Origin: Ignavibacteria bacterium
GTDB taxonomy: Bacteria > Bacteroidota > Ignavibacteria > Tepidaquicellales > Tepidaquicellaceae
DNA: 64,000 bases
Assembly (NCBI GenBank): GCA_036262055.1
Contig: DATAJP010000003.1
Location: forward strand, 372,001-436,000
Reading direction: 5' to 3'
Shown here in pieces: positions 1,630 through 63,123 of this stretch. The notes under the pieces were generated by a model that saw nothing but the letters and a program-made list of their open reading frames with translations, ran no database searches and had not been told where the DNA came from. The position numbers and the translations under genes are program-made. Within the stretch, counting starts at the first letter, position 1; each line of letters opens with the position of its first letter.

Positions 1630-2418
1630 TTGGGTAAAGTTATTTCAATATGCATCCCTAAAGGGGGAGTCGGTAAAACAACAACTGCGGTAAATCTTGC
1701 AGCTTCGCTTGCCGTTGCCGAAAAGAAGACGCTTTTAATTGATGTTGACCCGTATGGTTCATCGGCACTTGCGTTGGGCTTTACCGCCGATAAAATCAAA
1801 GCAGGAATTGCCGATATATTTTCATTTGCCAAGTCATTATCGTTTGCAATTCATAAAACCGAACTTGAGTATCTTGATTATGTTCCGTCAAATGTTAACT
1901 CTATGATTTCCGATGAGAAAATTTCAAAGATGTCGGATAACCGTGTCATTTTAAAAAATTCACTCAAAGACATTAAGAATAACTATGACCTTATAATAAT
2001 TGACTGTCCACCGATATTGCGTGGTTTTACGACAAATGCTTTGACTGCATCGGATTCGGTTTTAATTCCGCTCAAAGCCGGACATTTGTCTCTTGATGCT
2101 CTTGATAAGCTATTTGAATTTTTGCAATGGATAAAAGATGTTTGCAATCCGGGCATTGATGTTGAGGGAATTTTAATTACAATGCATGAAAAATCAAAGG
2201 TAGCGGAGCTTTCAGAACACGAACTTAAGCAGAGATATAATAATTATATGCTTGAGACATATATTCCGACATCGGATTTATTAAATGAAGCAACATTTTA
2301 TGGCAAACCGTTATGTTTATACAATATAAATTCAGAAGGTGCGGTTGCTTATCTTAACCTTGCGAATGAGTTGTTAATTAAAAATCAAAATTTGTTTGTT
2401 ACGAATGGAAATTCCTAA
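1630..2418 (+). CDS. ParA/MinD-family ATPase (orphan ParA)
   Basis: A 262-residue P-loop ATPase of the ParA/Soj type. The deviant Walker A motif KGGVGKTT is at residues 11-18, with the conserved VNLAASLA helix after it, and Walker A' appears as LIIIDCPP. ParA proteins dimerise on ATP, bind DNA non-specifically and position chromosomes, plasmids or large complexes. The start is a TTG directly after the preceding stop; no ATG is available before the P-loop. No parB-like gene or obvious parS array is visible nearby, and the gene overlaps valS by 14 nt. It could be the chromosomal Soj with ParB encoded elsewhere, or an orphan positioning ATPase. Family is certain, role is not. Confidence 0.88.
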   Translation: MGKVISICIPKGGVGKTTTAVNLAASLAVAEKKTLLIDVDPYGSSALALGFTADKIKAGIADIFSFAKSLSFAIHKTELEYLDYVPSNVNSMISDEKISKMSDNRVILKNSLKDIKNNYDLIIIDCPPILRGFTTNALTASDSVLIPLKAGHLSLDALDKLFEFLQWIKDVCNPGIDVEGILITMHEKSKVAELSEHELKQRYNNYMLETYIPTSDLLNEATFYGKPLCLYNINSEGAVAYLNLANELLIKNQNLFVTNGNS

Positions 2419-5041
2419 AAATTACGATTACATATCGTCTGAAAAAAAATGGATAGATTTCTGGGAAGAACATAAGTTTTACTATTCAACACCAAATCTT
2501 TCTAAACCAAAATTTACTATTGTTATACCTCCGCCAAATATCACGGGTGTTCTGCACATCGGACATATTTTAAATAATACAATTCAGGATATTTATTGCC
2601 GCTGGAAAAGAATGTCCGGCTTTGAAGTTTGCTGGGTTCCCGGCACTGACCACGCGGGCATTGGCACGCAAATCGTAATCGAGAAAGAGCTTGCAAAGCA
2701 GGGAAAGTCGAAATACGATATTGGCAGGGAAGAGTTCATAAAAATAACCTGGCAATGGAAGGAAGAAAAAGGCGGACATATTTTAAAACAGCTTCGCAAG
2801 CTTGGTGCGTCCCTTGACTGGTCAAAAGAACGCTTCACGATGGATGATGGTCTTTCAAAAGCTGTGCGATCGGTATTCGTTGACTTATTTAAGAAAGGTT
2901 TGATATATAAAGGCAAACGCATTATCAATTGGGATCCAAAAACTATAACCGCAGTAAGTGATGATGAAATTTACTTTAAAGAACAGCAGGATAAGCTTTA
3001 TTATGTTCGTTATCCTCTTGCAGGCACTCAGGAGTTCATAACAATTGCCACGGCACGTCCTGAAACAATGTTCGGTGATGTTGCAGTTGCTGTAAATCCA
3101 AAAGATGAACGTTATAAAGAATATATCGGCAAAAATGTAATTCTTCCGATTGTGAATAAAGAAATTCCTGTTATTGCCGATGATTATGTCGATGTGGAAT
3201 TCGGAACAGGTTCATTAAAAATAACTCCGGCTCACGATGTTAATGATTTTGAAATCGGTTTACGCCATAACCTTGAAATCATAAACGTCCTTACTCCCGA
3301 TGCAAAGCTTAATGAATACGGACTTGAGTTCAAAGGTCTCGATGTTCCGACTGCACGAAAAGAAGTTGTCGAGCGTTTAAAAGAACTAAGCTTGCTTGAA
3401 AAAGAAGATGATTACGTTCATAATGTTTCATTTACGGAACGTTCAGGTGTTCAGGTAGAGCCGTATCTTTCTGACCAATGGTTTGTATCGATGAAAAAAC
3501 TTGCAGAGCCGGCAATTACCGTTGTTGAAAACGAACAGATAAAATTTTATCCCGAGAAATGGTTTAAGACTTATATGCACTGGATGAAAAATGTCCGTGA
3601 TTGGTGCATATCACGCCAGCTTTGGTGGGGACATCAGATTCCTGTCTGGTATCATAAGCATACAGATGAAATATATTGCGAAGTTGAACCGCCCAAGGAT
3701 ATTGAAAACTGGACTCAAGACGAGGATGTTCTCGATACCTGGTTCTCTTCATGGATCTGGCCGTTCAGTGTTTTCGGATGGGAAGATTCAGAGAAAGACA
3801 ATTACAACGAAGATTTAAATTATTATTACCCGACAGACTTGCTTGTAACAGGACCTGATATAATTTATCTCTGGGTTGCAAGAATGATTATGTCGGGACT
3901 TGAGTACATGCATGAGATTCCTTTCACTGATGTTTATTTTACTTCCATCATTCGCGATGAAAAGGGAAGGAAGATGTCGAAGTCACTCGGCAATTCTCCT
4001 GAACCGCTCGACATAATGGAAAAATACGGAACAGATGCTTTGCGCTTTACGCTTGTTTATCTTGCGCCGCTTGGAAATGATGTTTTGTTCGATGAGCAAA
4101 AAACTGAAATCGGCAGAAACTTTATTACAAAAATCTGGAATGCCGGCAGATATCTGATGATGAACAAGGAACAGATTGAAAGCTCGACAGAATACGCCAG
4201 TAAAGATTATAAAGATGATTTATCCGATAAATGGATTAAAAGCAGATTTAATTCTACGCTGAGAAGTATTGAATATCATCTGACAAGTTATCGTTTGAAT
4301 GATTATACAAAAAATTTATATTCGTTTATATGGTCTGACTTCTGTGACTGGTATATCGAATTTTTGAAAATAAAAATCAGCAATAATAAAGAATCAGCAG
4401 GAAAAATTATTGATGATGCAATTGAGATGTATGTTAATATTTTAAAAAGCCTGCATCCGGTAACACCGTTTGTTACCGAGGAAATGTGGCATCATTTGAA
4501 TCCTAATGAGACAAACACAAGTATTTCAGTTCAGGATTTCCCTGAGATAGATGCAGACTTAATTGATGCTGAGATTGAAAATGAATTTGAATCTCTTAAA
4601 GAGATTGTAGGCTCAATCAGGAATCTAAAAGCAGAAAACAATATTGCGCTTACAGCGCCCTGTCATGTTATTTTCAAAACTTCCGATAAAGATACTTTAA
4701 AAATGATTGATGACTTTGATGATTATGTAAAGCAATTATGTTTTGTTTCAAATCTTGAAATCATCAGCGAAGATGAAGAAGCTCCTAAGAATTCTGTGAG
4801 TGCCGTGTTAAACAATGTTGAAGTATATTTAATGCTTGAAGGACTTGTTGATTTTGCGAAAGTGAACGAAAAGATAAACAAAGAAATCGAAAATCTCGAG
4901 AAATATGTCGATACTCTTAACAAGAAACTTAACAACAAAGGATTTATAACGAAAGCTTCTTCTGAAGTTGTTGAACGTGAGAAAGAAAAGAGGGAAGAGG
5001 CATTGGATAAGCTCGATAAGTTAAGAGCTAAGGTTAGTTAA
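2405..5041 (+). CDS. valS: Valine--tRNA ligase
   Basis: Class I aminoacyl-tRNA synthetase that charges tRNA-Val. The 878-residue length is normal for bacterial ValRS. The HIGH signature appears as PPPNITGVLHIGH near residue 45, the editing (CP1) domain includes TARPETMFGD and ITPAHDVNDFE, and the KMSKS loop is GRKMSKSLGN. The anticodon-binding domain is followed by a charged C-terminal coiled coil (roughly the last 65 residues), as in other ValRS. I place the start at the ATG giving MEIPKNYDYI; a TTG nine bases upstream is also in frame. The start lies inside the end of the parA gene (14-nt overlap), implying coupled translation. It is the last gene of a plus-strand run facing the minus-strand arginase. 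Confidence 0.97.
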   Translation: MEIPKNYDYISSEKKWIDFWEEHKFYYSTPNLSKPKFTIVIPPPNITGVLHIGHILNNTIQDIYCRWKRMSGFEVCWVPGTDHAGIGTQIVIEKELAKQGKSKYDIGREEFIKITWQWKEEKGGHILKQLRKLGASLDWSKERFTMDDGLSKAVRSVFVDLFKKGLIYKGKRIINWDPKTITAVSDDEIYFKEQQDKLYYVRYPLAGTQEFITIATARPETMFGDVAVAVNPKDERYKEYIGKNVILPIVNKEIPVIADDYVDVEFGTGSLKITPAHDVNDFEIGLRHNLEIINVLTPDAKLNEYGLEFKGLDVPTARKEVVERLKELSLLEKEDDYVHNVSFTERSGVQVEPYLSDQWFVSMKKLAEPAITVVENEQIKFYPEKWFKTYMHWMKNVRDWCISRQLWWGHQIPVWYHKHTDEIYCEVEPPKDIENWTQDEDVLDTWFSSWIWPFSVFGWEDSEKDNYNEDLNYYYPTDLLVTGPDIIYLWVARMIMSGLEYMHEIPFTDVYFTSIIRDEKGRKMSKSLGNSPEPLDIMEKYGTDALRFTLVYLAPLGNDVLFDEQKTEIGRNFITKIWNAGRYLMMNKEQIESSTEYASKDYKDDLSDKWIKSRFNSTLRSIEYHLTSYRLNDYTKNLYSFIWSDFCDWYIEFLKIKISNNKESAGKIIDDAIEMYVNILKSLHPVTPFVTEEMWHHLNPNETNTSISVQDFPEIDADLIDAEIENEFESLKEIVGSIRNLKAENNIALTAPCHVIFKTSDKDTLKMIDDFDDYVKQLCFVSNLEIISEDEEAPKNSVSAVLNNVEVYLMLEGLVDFAKVNEKINKEIENLEKYVDTLNKKLNNKGFITKASSEVVEREKEKREEALDKLDKLRAKVS

Positions 5042-5052
5042 ATTTATTTTTT

Positions 5053-5218
5053 GTCATTCCCGCGAAGGCGGGAATCTTGTGTCGTCAGGTCTTATGACCT
5101 GACGAAAATTGTCAGGAAGTAATTCCTGACAACAAATGAAATCGGGTACGACAGACATTCCTGTCTGTCGCTACTGGGATTCACTCGTGACCCAAAGTGT
5201 ACCCCCGCGGGAATGACA
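5053..5218. repeat. Composite palindromic repeat element between convergent genes
   Basis: This 166-bp block fills the gap between valS and the arginase. It is bounded by inverted arms, GTCATTCCCGCG on the left and CGCGGGAATGAC on the right. Between them are three separate short hairpins: CGTCAGGTC/GACCTGACG (5083-5104), TTGTCAGGAA/TTCCTGACAA (5109-5132) and CGACAGACA/TGTCTGTCG (5149-5170). The left arm alone forms the common family A hairpin (5053-5076). The right half shares a GTGACCCAAAG core with the copies at 58364 and 62509. It may also serve as a bidirectional terminator for the two converging genes. No coding capacity is seen. Confidence 0.85.
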
Positions 5219-5246
5219 TATCTTAAATTTCTACTAATCCAAAACC

Positions 5247-6173
5247 TTATTCAAACAAAGTATTCTTACCAAATGCTGAAGCAATCAGCTCCGTTGCAAG
5301 AACTGCTGTGCGGTTTTTTATGTCGAGTATTGGATTTACCTCCAACATTTCAAGCGATGAAAGCTGTCCGCTTTCTGCAATCATTTCCATTAATAATTGC
5401 GACTCACGGTAAGTAAGCCCGCCGGGAACAGGTGTTCCTACTCCTTCTGCAATATCCGGGTCTATCCCATCAATGTCAAAGCTCACATGAAGAAAATCAA
5501 CTCTGCCTTTAAAATCATTGAGAACTTTTGAAATAATATGAGGCATTCCGAGCTTATCGATATCCGTCATCGTATAAACCTGCGGTTTCAATTTCTTTAT
5601 TGTTCTCGATTCAAGATAATCAACGTCTCTTATTCCGATAAGCGCAATATTTTCAATGTCCAGCTTCGGAGAAAATCCTCCGAGACGCACAAGTTTTTTA
5701 TCACCCAACCCGAGTGAAATCGCAAGTGGCATTCCGTGAATGTTTCCTGATGGAGTTGTTTCAGGTGTATTCATATCGGTATGAGCATCAATCCAGATTA
5801 CACCAAGAGTTTTATTATTTTCACGGCAATAAGATGAAATTCCCGCAATGCTTCCGATTGCTGTAGCGTGGTCACCTCCGAGAATAAGAGGGGAGTATTT
5901 ACGGTTTAAAATCGATTCTGTTTTCTTCGCAAGTAATTTTGAAGTCTTTATAATTTCGGCGTGATACTTTAACTTAGCATTTCTTACTTTTTGTGTTTCC
6001 GCAATCTCAACATCGATGTCACCGAAGTCTGTTACATTATACCCGAGCGCTTCAAGCTTACGCTCAAGCCCTGCATATCGAATTGCAGAAGGACCCATAT
6101 CCACGCCGCGTCTGTCGGCTCCCAAATCCATCGGAAACCCTATAATACCTATTTTTCTTGTTCTTTTTGCCAT
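5247..6173 (-). CDS. rocF: Arginase
   Basis: Hydrolyses L-arginine to ornithine and urea at a binuclear Mn centre. The 308-residue protein keeps the whole ureohydrolase signature: GGDHA (metal ligand H102), WIDAHTDMN (D129, H131, D133) and SFDIDGIDPD (D233, D235). The SGNIHGMPLA segment is typical of true arginases rather than agmatinases, and the N-terminal FPMDLGADRRGVDMGPSAIR matches RocF-type enzymes. The conserved second-shell residue is Gly in SFDIDG where many arginases have Ala. It is a single gene on the minus strand facing valS across a composite repeat. No urease or ornithine genes are adjacent. Formiminoglutamase or another ureohydrolase is the alternative, but less likely. Confidence 0.93.
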   Translation of the reverse strand: MAKRTRKIGIIGFPMDLGADRRGVDMGPSAIRYAGLERKLEALGYNVTDFGDIDVEIAETQKVRNAKLKYHAEIIKTSKLLAKKTESILNRKYSPLILGGDHATAIGSIAGISSYCRENNKTLGVIWIDAHTDMNTPETTPSGNIHGMPLAISLGLGDKKLVRLGGFSPKLDIENIALIGIRDVDYLESRTIKKLKPQVYTMTDIDKLGMPHIISKVLNDFKGRVDFLHVSFDIDGIDPDIAEGVGTPVPGGLTYRESQLLMEMIAESGQLSSLEMLEVNPILDIKNRTAVLATELIASAFGKNTLFE

Positions 6174-21288: not shown

Positions 21289-21354
21289 GTCATTCTGAGG
21301 AGTGAAACGACGAAGAATCCCAAATGTGATCCTTCGCTATACTCAAGAGGACAC
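21289..21354. repeat. Family B repeat, imperfect inverted copy
   Basis: Begins GTCATTCTGAGGAGTGAAAC, continues with GACGAAGAATCCC, and has a degenerate right half with GATCCTTCGCTATACTC. It lies between the divergent PfkB and DUF3467 genes. Confidence 0.7.
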
Positions 21355-21450
21355 CATCTTTTGCCAATTAACTTATTCGTGGCTTGATAATCAATAAAAA
21401 TACTCATAATATTAATTTAATTAAATTTATTAAATCATATATTTTTCAAA

Positions 21451-21792
21451 ATGGATAACAAAGATAAAACTGTTCAGAACCCGCAGCAGATAAACATTGA
21501 GCTTGGAGAGAAAGAAGCAGAAGGCATTTACTCAAACCTTGCTATAATTTCACATTCACCGGCAGAATTTATACTCGATTTCACGAGAGTATTTCCCGGA
21601 ATACCTAAAGCAAAAGTTCACGCAAGAATTATAATGACTCCGCAGCACGCAAAACTTTTTTTAATGGCATTAAAAGAAAATGTGGGGAATTATGAAAAGC
21701 AATTCGGAGAAATTTCGACTAATGTTCAACCGCCCGACCAGACATTCGGTTTTCAAGTGCCGGTAAAACCAAAAGATGAGAAGATAAATTAA
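21451..21792 (+). CDS. DUF3467-family protein
   Basis: A 113-residue cytoplasmic protein. The core YSNLAIISHSPAEFILDF followed by FPGIPKAKVHARIIMTPQHAK and LKENVGNYEKQFG matches the DUF3467 family, small proteins widespread in Bacteroidota and other phyla. No function is established. The C-terminal 25 residues are Pro/Gln-rich and probably disordered. It stands alone between two family B repeats. Confidence 0.85.
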   Translation: MDNKDKTVQNPQQINIELGEKEAEGIYSNLAIISHSPAEFILDFTRVFPGIPKAKVHARIIMTPQHAKLFLMALKENVGNYEKQFGEISTNVQPPDQTFGFQVPVKPKDEKIN

Positions 21793-21803
21793 AAAACTTA
21801 TGT

Positions 21804-21878
21804 GTCATCCTGAGCGTAGCGAAGGATCCCATTTCTTTCACGAATGGGATTCTTCGTCGTTTCACTCCTCAGAATGAC
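21804..21878. repeat. Family B long inverted repeat
   Basis: A 75-bp hairpin. The left half begins GTCATCCTGAGCGTAGCGAA, the right half ends TTTCACTCCTCAGAATGAC, and the centre is GGATCCCATT...AATGGGATTC. It fills the gap between convergent genes (DUF3467 and lptG) and could terminate both. Confidence 0.8.
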
Positions 21879-23835: not shown

Positions 23836-23965
23836 GTCATCCCAGCGAAGGCTGGGATCCAGACAACAGTAATTTATTAGTCTATGGTTTTAATAATCTA
23901 ATTTGATTACAGGAGCATTTCTTTTAGAAACTTCTAGACTAGATTCCAGCTTCCGCTGGAATGAC
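23836..23965. repeat. Composite repeat element in a 457-bp gene-free gap
   Basis: A 130-bp block bounded by inverted hairpins: GTCATCCCAGCGAAGGCTGG on the left and CCAGCTTCCGCTGGAATGAC on the right. About 80 bp of unrelated AT-rich sequence lies between. The whole gap 23680-24136 holds no gene that I can support. The remainder is very AT-rich and includes a probable promoter for nuoK near its right end. Confidence 0.75.
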
Positions 23966-26400: not shown

Positions 26401-26460
26401 GTCATTCCCGCGAAGGCGGATAAAATAAAAATTTTGTCATTCCAGCGAAAGCTGGAATCC
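26401..26460. repeat. Two adjacent family A repeats (one truncated)
   Basis: 26401-26420 is a truncated copy (GTCATTCCCGCGAAGGCGGA). 26436-26460 is a complete copy, GTCATTCCAGCG followed by AAAGCTGGAATCC. Both follow the nuoL stop directly. Confidence 0.8.
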
Positions 26461-26484
26461 AGGCAAAGAACATTTTTAATCTAA

Positions 26485-26529
26485 TAAGCTTACAATCTAT
26501 AATCATTTTAGAATGTAAGCTTTTTTTAT
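26485..26529 (+). terminator. Rho-independent terminator for nuoKL
   Basis: Stem AAGCTTACA/TGTAAGCTT with a 19-base loop and a run of seven or more T. Confidence 0.65.
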
Positions 26530-26548
26530 TTAATACTTATATTTCTTT

Positions 26549-26573
26549 GGATTCCTGCCTTCGCAGGAATGAC
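26549..26573. repeat. Family A palindromic repeat
   Basis: GGATTCCTGC, CTTC turn, GCAGGAATGAC. It is inverted relative to the copies at 26401-26460, so a terminator lies inside a pair of opposed repeats. Confidence 0.8.
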
Positions 26574-41679: not shown

Positions 41680-41730
41680 GGTAGGACAGGCATTCCTGCC
41701 TGTCCGGACAGACAGAATGTCTGTCCTACC
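41680..41730. repeat. Family C double palindrome
   Basis: GGTAGGACAGGCATTCCTGC..., then ...CAGAATGTCTGTCCTACC: two nested hairpins inside an outer perfect inverted repeat, GGTAGGACAG/CTGTCCTACC. The same words recur at 5149-5170 and 63119-63145. Confidence 0.85.
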
Positions 41731-58363: not shown

Positions 58364-58403
58364 GTCATTCCCGCGGGGAACCCTTTGGGTCACGCGGGAA
58401 TCC
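58364..58403. repeat. Long-form family A repeat
   Basis: GTCATTCCCGCGGGGAACCC, then TTTGGGTCACGCGGGAATCC. The insert between the arms matches the reverse of the copies at 5176 and 62509. Confidence 0.85.
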
Positions 58404-60750: not shown

Positions 60751-60812
60751 GTCATTCCTGCGAAGGCAGGAATCCATCAACGTTTCGTTGACCCTGAAAC
60801 AAGTTCAGGGTA
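60751..60812. repeat. Composite repeat: family A hairpin plus two short palindromes
   Basis: 60751-60775 is family A (GTCATTCCTGCG, then AAGGCAGGAATCC). It is followed by CAACGTTTCGTTG and ACCCTGAAACAAGTTCAGGG, each a small hairpin. It may terminate etfA. Confidence 0.8.
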
Positions 60813-60912
60813 ACAATATAACAAGTATTTAAACAATTGTTTCTAATTTGATTTAATTAATGAAACAATTTATTTTTAACTGTGTAAAAATATTTAAGAA
60901 GTAAAAGTTTAT

Positions 60913-62367: not shown

Positions 62368-63123
62368 TTGAATCTTTTAATCGACATAGGTAATTCACGA
62401 ATTAAATATTGCATGTCAAAAAATGGCAAGCTTGGGAAAGTATTTTCTTTAGAATATAAAAAAGAAAAATTTAGGTCAATCTTCAAAAAGGTATTATCAA
62501 TAAATAATGGGATGACCCAAAGGGTGCCCCCCGCTTTCGCGGGAATGACTTCCCCTGAAAAAATTTATGTTTCAAATGTCGTGCCGGAATTTAATCAGGT
62601 AATTAAACGAAGCGGTGCCAAACTTATTAACATAAACTCGAAGCTTCCTATTAAATTTAATTACAAAGGTAATCTCGGCTCTGATAGAATCTGTTCAACA
62701 ATCGGAACAAGAGCTGAATTTCCAAAAAGGAAAAATATTCTTATTGTCGATTTCGGAACGGCAACAACATATAACTTGTTAAGAGGAAATAACTTTGCAG
62801 GCGGATTGATTATGCCCGGGCTTAACACGGCACTCTCTTCCCTTCTCTCAAAAACCAGCCTGCCTAAAGTAAATTTGAAATACGATAAAAAACTTCTTGC
62901 CAGCACAACTGATAAAAATATAATCAATGGTGTCTTTGCACAGCAAATATTTACGTTTTATTATATTACAAGTGAGCTAAAGAAAAAACATAAAGATTTA
63001 TTTGTTGTTTTGACGGGCGGAATGAGCAAAACGATTTTAAAATATCTGAAGAAAAATTCTTATAACGCAATAGATTTAAACTTAGTTTTAAAAGGATTAA
63101 ATTATTTAGCAAATAACGGGTAG
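62368..63123 (+). CDS. coaX: Type III pantothenate kinase with repeat-derived insertion
   Basis: 251 residues from TTG 62368 (no ATG available). It phosphorylates pantothenate, the first step of CoA synthesis. Motifs of type III enzymes are intact: LLIDIGNSRIKY, GSDRICST, VDFGTATTYNLL, GGLIMPGLNTALSSL and LTGGMSKTI. Residues 48-61 (NGMTQRVPPAFAGMTS region) are encoded by a family repeat and have no counterpart in the usual motif spacing. They lie in a loop just before KIYVSNVVPE. The stop TAG is supplied by another repeat (family C). The kinase core is probably functional despite both. Confidence 0.9.
   Translation: MNLLIDIGNSRIKYCMSKNGKLGKVFSLEYKKEKFRSIFKKVLSINNGMTQRVPPAFAGMTSPEKIYVSNVVPEFNQVIKRSGAKLININSKLPIKFNYKGNLGSDRICSTIGTRAEFPKRKNILIVDFGTATTYNLLRGNNFAGGLIMPGLNTALSSLLSKTSLPKVNLKYDKKLLASTTDKNIINGVFAQQIFTFYYITSELKKKHKDLFVVLTGGMSKTILKYLKKNSYNAIDLNLVLKGLNYLANNG
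62509..62549. repeat. Long-form family A repeat inside the coaX frame
   Basis: GGGATGACCCAAAGGGTGCC, then CCCCGCTTTCGCGGGAATGAC. The copy matches the inverse of 58364-58403 and 5176-5218. The frame is kept open through the insertion. Confidence 0.85.

Follow-up and report, generated by a model that had tools for sequence, protein, structure and literature searches.

Introduction

The REPs of the CGTC superfamily, which includes the dRS3 repeat of Neisseria, carry an unpaired GTC tag at the foot of an 8-9 bp stem that starts with AT, followed by a short loop and a CC-type tail, and they form head-to-head dimers. Few dispersed repeats are as common in bacteria as GTC-tagged REPs, and the survey that defined the superfamily described no dedicated transposase or other enzyme for it (Di Nocera et al. 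2013, PMC3733652). In the neisserial intergenic mosaic elements (NIMEs), facing dRS3 copies surround other repeats in intergenic gaps. A second described arrangement, the REPtron, links REPINs or BIMEs with a REP-associated tyrosine transposase (RAYT), an HUH enzyme whose gene is flanked by the same palindrome that forms the inverted pairs (PMC2817692, PMC3116915). Nucleases are not mentioned in a 2025 survey of REPs (PMC12306157).

Here, we compare these systems with a 166-bp block of hairpins in an Ignavibacteria bacterium. The window is the whole stretch of 64,000 nucleotides that was analysed; REP statistics are based on an 864-kb sample, which consists of an 800-kb stretch of C2 plus the window.

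Results

Composition of the block in the valS/arginase gap

The gap was delimited from open reading frames and Pfam matches. It contains the following features.

2396-5041, plus strand: valS, left neighbour of the gap
5042-5246, no strand: convergent intergenic gap of 205 bp, with the putative pile-up
5053-5076, plus strand: left arm, family A REP, GTC-tagged (assigned to the CGTC class), tag outward, GTCATTCCCGCGAAGGCGGGAATC
5082-5105, no strand: hairpin 2, left half of an inverted pair of B REPs, TCGTCAGGTC-TTAT-GACCTGACGA
5109-5132, no strand: hairpin 3, right half of this B-B pair, in the opposite orientation to hairpin 2, TTGTCAGGAA-GTAA-TTCCTGACAA
5146-5170, plus strand: hairpin 4, family C REP with a GTAG-type tag (GTAC here), GACAGACATTCCTGTCTGTC
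5177-5217, minus strand: right arm, family A REP, GTC tag outward, enlarged loop, GTCATTCCCGCG[GGGGTACACTTTGGGTCA]CGAGTGAATCC
5188-5205, minus strand: nested module L (GGGNACCCTTTGGGTCA), 18 nt, inside the right-hand REP
5247-6173, minus strand: arginase-family gene, right neighbour of the gap

The first-pass annotation had described five hairpins between opposed GTCATTCC arms, and all of these are present in the 166 bp. The left arm consists of the GTC tag, the stem-loop ATTCCCGC-gaag-GCGGGAAT and a closing C. The loops of the B-B pair differ (GTAA in hairpin 3 versus TTAT in hairpin 2), and the stem-loop of hairpin 4 occupies 5149-5170 (CGACAGACA-TTCC-TGTCTGTCG). What had been counted as the fifth hairpin does exist, as a family A REP with a module inserted in its loop; it begins with GTCATTCC at 5217 on the minus strand, ends at about 5177, and has relatives at 58364, L013 and L016. 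Together, this REP and hairpin 4 make up a head-to-head A-C dimer; a second A-C dimer lies at C2:312237. Read from left to right, the block thus comprises one lone A REP, the B-B pair and then the C-A dimer.

GTCATTCC occurs 14 times in the window, as compared to 1.65 expected (0 of 100 shuffles reached this count). The predicted folding energy of the block is -48.8 kcal/mol, versus -19.8 kcal/mol for shuffled sequences (z -9.1; 0 of 200 shuffles as good). valS and the arginase gene are convergent in other members of the family as well; they lie 54 bp apart in the nearest relative and 2-22 bp apart in most others, and in two relatives another gene sits between them. Because the gap is small in relatives, the pile-up is specific to this lineage.

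Strong folding and a convergent location are consistent with retention of the block for an RNA-level function, as a bidirectional terminator or stabiliser of mRNA 3' ends, whatever its origin. Convergent gaps account for only 9,560 of the 75,953 intergenic bp of the sample, yet hold 53 of its 191 intergenic elements. However, the relatives manage with 2-54 bp, and the content of such gaps differs from one to the next, so that we regard this function as doubtful. It would be compatible with a mobile origin.

The block is probably a pile-up of separate units

The block had initially been read as a MITE-like or modular element that recurs elsewhere. On that reading, one MITE with GTCATTCC terminal repeats captured the hairpins and moves as a unit, as its inverted arms and its one truly nested module might suggest. 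However, no second copy of the whole 166 bp was found by BLAST in its own genome, where all matches were partial and the best spans 64 bp; a MITE should instead recur at several loci as one unit with constant ends. The target-site duplications that a MITE should leave were also looked for, and none was seen at the block (tttatttttt before GTC..GAC, atatcttaaa after it). Gaps with at least two REP units numbered 21, versus approximately 28 expected under random intergenic placement. The sharing of gaps by REP units therefore does not exceed what random placement would give, and no special clustering process is needed; clustering beyond chance was rejected on these counts. The contents of the 'composites' vary as well, and the three that had been listed as similar (23836-23965, 26401-26573 and 60751-60812) proved to differ in kind:

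23836-23965, no strand: A-A head-to-head REP dimer, inner ends resembling those of the GIY-YIG unit L151
26436-26573, no strand: A-A head-to-head REP dimer, within the second listed composite
60751-60814, plus strand: A-T head-to-head REP dimer, 64 bp, spacer of 17 bp, one of five copies in 864 kb

The first of these has CCAGACA after its left REP and CTAGATTCCAGC before its right REP, as in L151, and another A REP, in degraded form, lies at 26401-26423. A single MITE is therefore a very improbable explanation. We consider it probable, jointly with the account of the arms given below, that REP units of three families, each dispersed independently, piled up by chance in one convergent gap to give the block.

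Hairpins 2 and 3 match a RAYT-linked REP pair

Hairpins 2 and 3 had been thought to occur only here. They are unique within the window, but not in the genome: the B-B pair recurs at C3:1108610-1108673 with 89% identity and, more diverged, at C2:430060-430117. Like a REPIN, it is thus an inverted REP pair found at several loci. Its palindrome family also flanks a Y1_Tnp ORF (L006, C3:500.4-501.1 kb), as REPs flank a RAYT gene in the REPtron, and L006 is identified as a REP-associated tyrosine transposase by NCBIfam NF047646 (105.5 bits; cut-off 80). On these sequence matches, hairpins 2 and 3 are classed as a RAYT-linked inverted REP pair.

Four RAYT-like genes were found in the genome (L006, L007, L008 and L009). 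A search for a TnpA-REP source, which the first-pass annotation had proposed, thus yielded a RAYT for the two inner hairpins, but none of the four is bracketed by the arms. As a source of the arms, RAYTs were rejected; the four carry other palindromes, none of the arm family. The palindromes flanking L007 are CGAACCC..GGGTTCG and CGAAAGC..GCTTTCG, that flanking L008 is GTTGTTGGTG..CACCAACAAC, and that flanking L009 is GTAGAGACGCAA..TTGCGTCTC.

The arms match REPs of the CGTC superfamily

The arm palindrome is a high-copy repeat, with 147 exact copies in this genome; a looser pattern gave 190 matches, versus 1 in the reversed control. Exact copies number 0 in the nearest genus and are patchy elsewhere (0-45). 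Nearly all of the 86 family A matches listed in the 864-kb sample begin with GTCAT.

The arms have the unpaired GTC tag at the foot of an 8-9 bp, AT-starting stem, and a CC-type tail. A loop of 4-5 nt is found in the left arm and most copies, but not in the right arm, whose nested 18-nt module sets it apart from the published CGTC REPs. Pairs of GTC-tagged REPs within 150 bp were predominantly head-to-head (26, versus 0 tail-to-tail and 10 head-to-tail). Because of the tag, the AT-starting stem and the head-to-head pairing, the arms are assigned by sequence to the published CGTC superfamily that includes dRS3. The block also resembles NIMEs in its layout, but differs in its inner repeats, which here are REPs of other families, one of them tied to a RAYT. 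The published trait of having no mobility gene does not hold in this genome, where cognate REPs bracket genes for GIY-YIG nucleases. This contradicts a published negative result, not a defining structural feature of CGTC REPs.

Inverted GTC-tagged REPs bracket small GIY-YIG genes

A screen for genes with REPs at both ends pointed to small GIY-YIG genes. Eight genes of the genome exceed the PF01541 cut-off, six of them small and two in long frames (650 and 573 aa). Inverted GTC-tagged REPs, tags outward, stand on both sides of five of the six small genes, which makes units of 359-379 bp; the sixth belongs to another subfamily and lacks GTC REP bracketing. The conserved catalytic residues of the domain (Y-x-Y, YxG, R, E and N) are invariant in 12 aligned proteins. 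By sequence profile, these proteins share their domain with the single-domain UPF0213/GIY-YIG proteins (PDB 1zg2, 1ywl; E 3.7e-7), entries with no stated function to which the REP-bracketed proteins are a related group. In the 864-kb sample, the bracketing test was passed by 3 of 3 GIY-YIG genes, versus 6 of 752 other genes (Fisher p 1e-6).

The left and right REPs match within each unit and differ between units, as in these three:

L148 unit: family E REPs around the GIY-YIG gene
L151 unit: AGCGAAAGCT variant of family A around the GIY-YIG gene
L152 unit: CGCGAAAGCG variant of family A around the GIY-YIG gene

The paralogous units L150 and L152 share 82-83% identity over 379 and 383 bp. Their homology spans from tag to tag, starting exactly at GTCATT and ending at GACTTC. 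The L152 unit splits the gene pair for biotin carboxylase and biotin carrier, leaving a gap of 443 bp; in 20 of the 21 relatives with both genes in view, these are at most 32 bp apart or overlap, with no nuclease gene between them. No target-site duplication was seen at the flanks of the nuclease units. The idea that the arms act as terminal inverted repeats, which had been put forward for the block, is thus borne out elsewhere, around the GIY-YIG genes.

Bracketing in other genomes

Among relatives, 22 of 34 testable genes were bracketed, the source genome included. A wide scan of bacterial genomes found bracketing at 48 of 76 loci in many phyla, a proportion (about 63%) that describes the clade scanned for, rather than GIY-YIG proteins in general, because the query was built from REP-bracketed proteins. 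None of 26 arginase loci was bracketed, and no shuffled flanks passed; since REPs have a common consensus, mismatched pairs of flanks from different loci still exceeded the shuffle threshold 10% of the time. Bracketing is not recognisable at about a third of the related loci, and an inward-tagged REP pair was also detected at 13 of the 76. The REP nearest the gene pointed outward in 126 of 162 cases.

Bracketed copies were found in records of Neisseria gonorrhoeae, where the REP is dRS3, and of Shinella, Rhizobium CIAT894, Sphingobium and Azospirillum; the R. tumorigenes relative showed no bracketing. In Azospirillum lipoferum, a REP-bracketed copy lies between sufB and sufC, and three close relatives have a short gap with no such gene. 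No empty site exact to the base was found: presence and absence are clear in Azospirillum and Shinella, where the junctions are too diverged, and the Sinorhizobium record compared also carries a GIY-YIG gene. Phage records yielded no GIY-YIG relative.

No close GIY-YIG match was found in some REP-rich relatives (G005, G006 and G033), and some GIY-YIG carriers have none of the arm family, although REP types vary. Across 59 genomes, the copy number of family A correlated moderately with that of close GIY-YIG genes (Spearman 0.48), a value that is not decisive because REP types vary.

A candidate enzyme for GTC-tagged REPs

The comparisons of these sequences demonstrate bracketing, matched REP variants, tag-to-tag homology and the presence or absence of units at conserved junctions. 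From the bracketing, it seems fairly probable that the GIY-YIG nuclease mobilises GTC REPs. The arms, as the second part of the joint reading judged probable above, would then serve as terminal repeats in a distinct and minimal mobile unit, composed of a tagged REP, a GIY-YIG gene and an inverted REP with its tag. Its REP-gene-REP layout is analogous to that of the REPtron, with a GIY-YIG nuclease in place of the HUH tyrosine transposase.

In the proposed mechanism, the nuclease would recognise its own REP hairpin when this is single-stranded or extruded, and would nick it at the unpaired GTC tag. Replication or repair would then copy the REP, a REP dimer or the whole unit into a new intergenic site, with no target duplication, and single REPs or REP dimers could be copied by the nuclease in trans. 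Nicking of this kind is plausible, not proven, because the GIY-YIG class counts both classic homing endonucleases and structure-specific nucleases among its members (PMC1564403).

That same enzymatic background suggests the main alternative: the GIY-YIG gene might encode a free-standing endonuclease of the homing type and insert itself into head-to-head REP dimers that are already in place, while something else disperses the REPs. Gene-free REP dimers are indeed common, and among the RAYTs and other transposases found in this genome, none explains the GTC REPs. However, the L150/L152 homology takes in both REPs and stops at the tags, relatives lack the whole L152 unit, along with its REPs, at the operon junction, and the REP variants match left and right at each locus but differ between loci. 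A homing invader is therefore an unlikely explanation, and we favour mobilisation of the REPs by the nuclease.

More broadly, and with about equal chances for and against, there may exist bacteria-wide minimal mobile elements of ~360 bp, in which a nuclease of ~100 residues and its own GTC-tagged REPs move themselves and generate the GTCATTCC, GTCATTGCGAG and GTCATCCTGAG repeats, including Neisseria dRS3. If so, these would be among the smallest candidate autonomous mobile units and would bring in a nuclease class with no earlier link to REPs; the composite would then be the ordinary debris left by several small families of this kind. The REP-bracketed nuclease gene, found in many phyla, offers a concrete and testable candidate enzyme for GTC REPs. 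We found no paper linking GIY-YIG genes to REPs or dRS3; because the search covered open-access full texts, the novelty of the link is provisional.

A nested module in the right-hand REP

Nested insertion, as had been proposed, holds for one piece, the 18 nt inserted into the loop of the right-hand REP; it does not hold for the block as a whole, which does not recur. This loop carries GGGGTACACTTTGGGTCA, which is close to the module L sequence. The 13-nt core of module L, ACCCTTTGGGTCA, has 22 exact copies in the genome versus 0 in the reversed control, and 19 of 20 copies in the 864-kb sample sit inside REPs. These REPs belong to at least four unrelated families, and the module always lies at the position where plain copies have AA after G. 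The module is rare or absent in most relatives. It might be a derivative of the RAYT-linked CGAACCC..GGGTTCG palindromes at L007, to which it bears a weak, 13-nt resemblance. Within the window, it is found at 5188-5205, 58375-58392 and 62513-62530. The module-bearing REP at 62513-62549 lies in frame within ORF 62368-63123, with the translation MTQRVPPAFAGMT.

REP dimers and further repeats

The 864-kb sample contains 221 oriented REP-type elements of several families. Close pairs, taken over all families, comprised 34 head-to-head, 0 tail-to-tail and 16 head-to-tail cases, and the recurrent dimer types were A-T (64 bp), C-C (49 bp, with a spacer of mostly 2), E-E, A-A and A-C. Family C has 32 matches in the 864 kb, often as 49-bp head-to-head dimers. 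One such GTAG-tagged C-C dimer lies at 41681-41729, with eight copies among the matches listed in the sample; no cognate RAYT was identified for it. In one relative, seven copies of CCCTTTGGGTCA follow one another at a spacing of ~160-250 bp (G018:C42:66634-67998). In the window, a 113-aa ORF at 21451-21792 lies between two E-E REP dimers that are mutually inverted copies (21289-21878), and it has the top matched-flank score among 755 genes.
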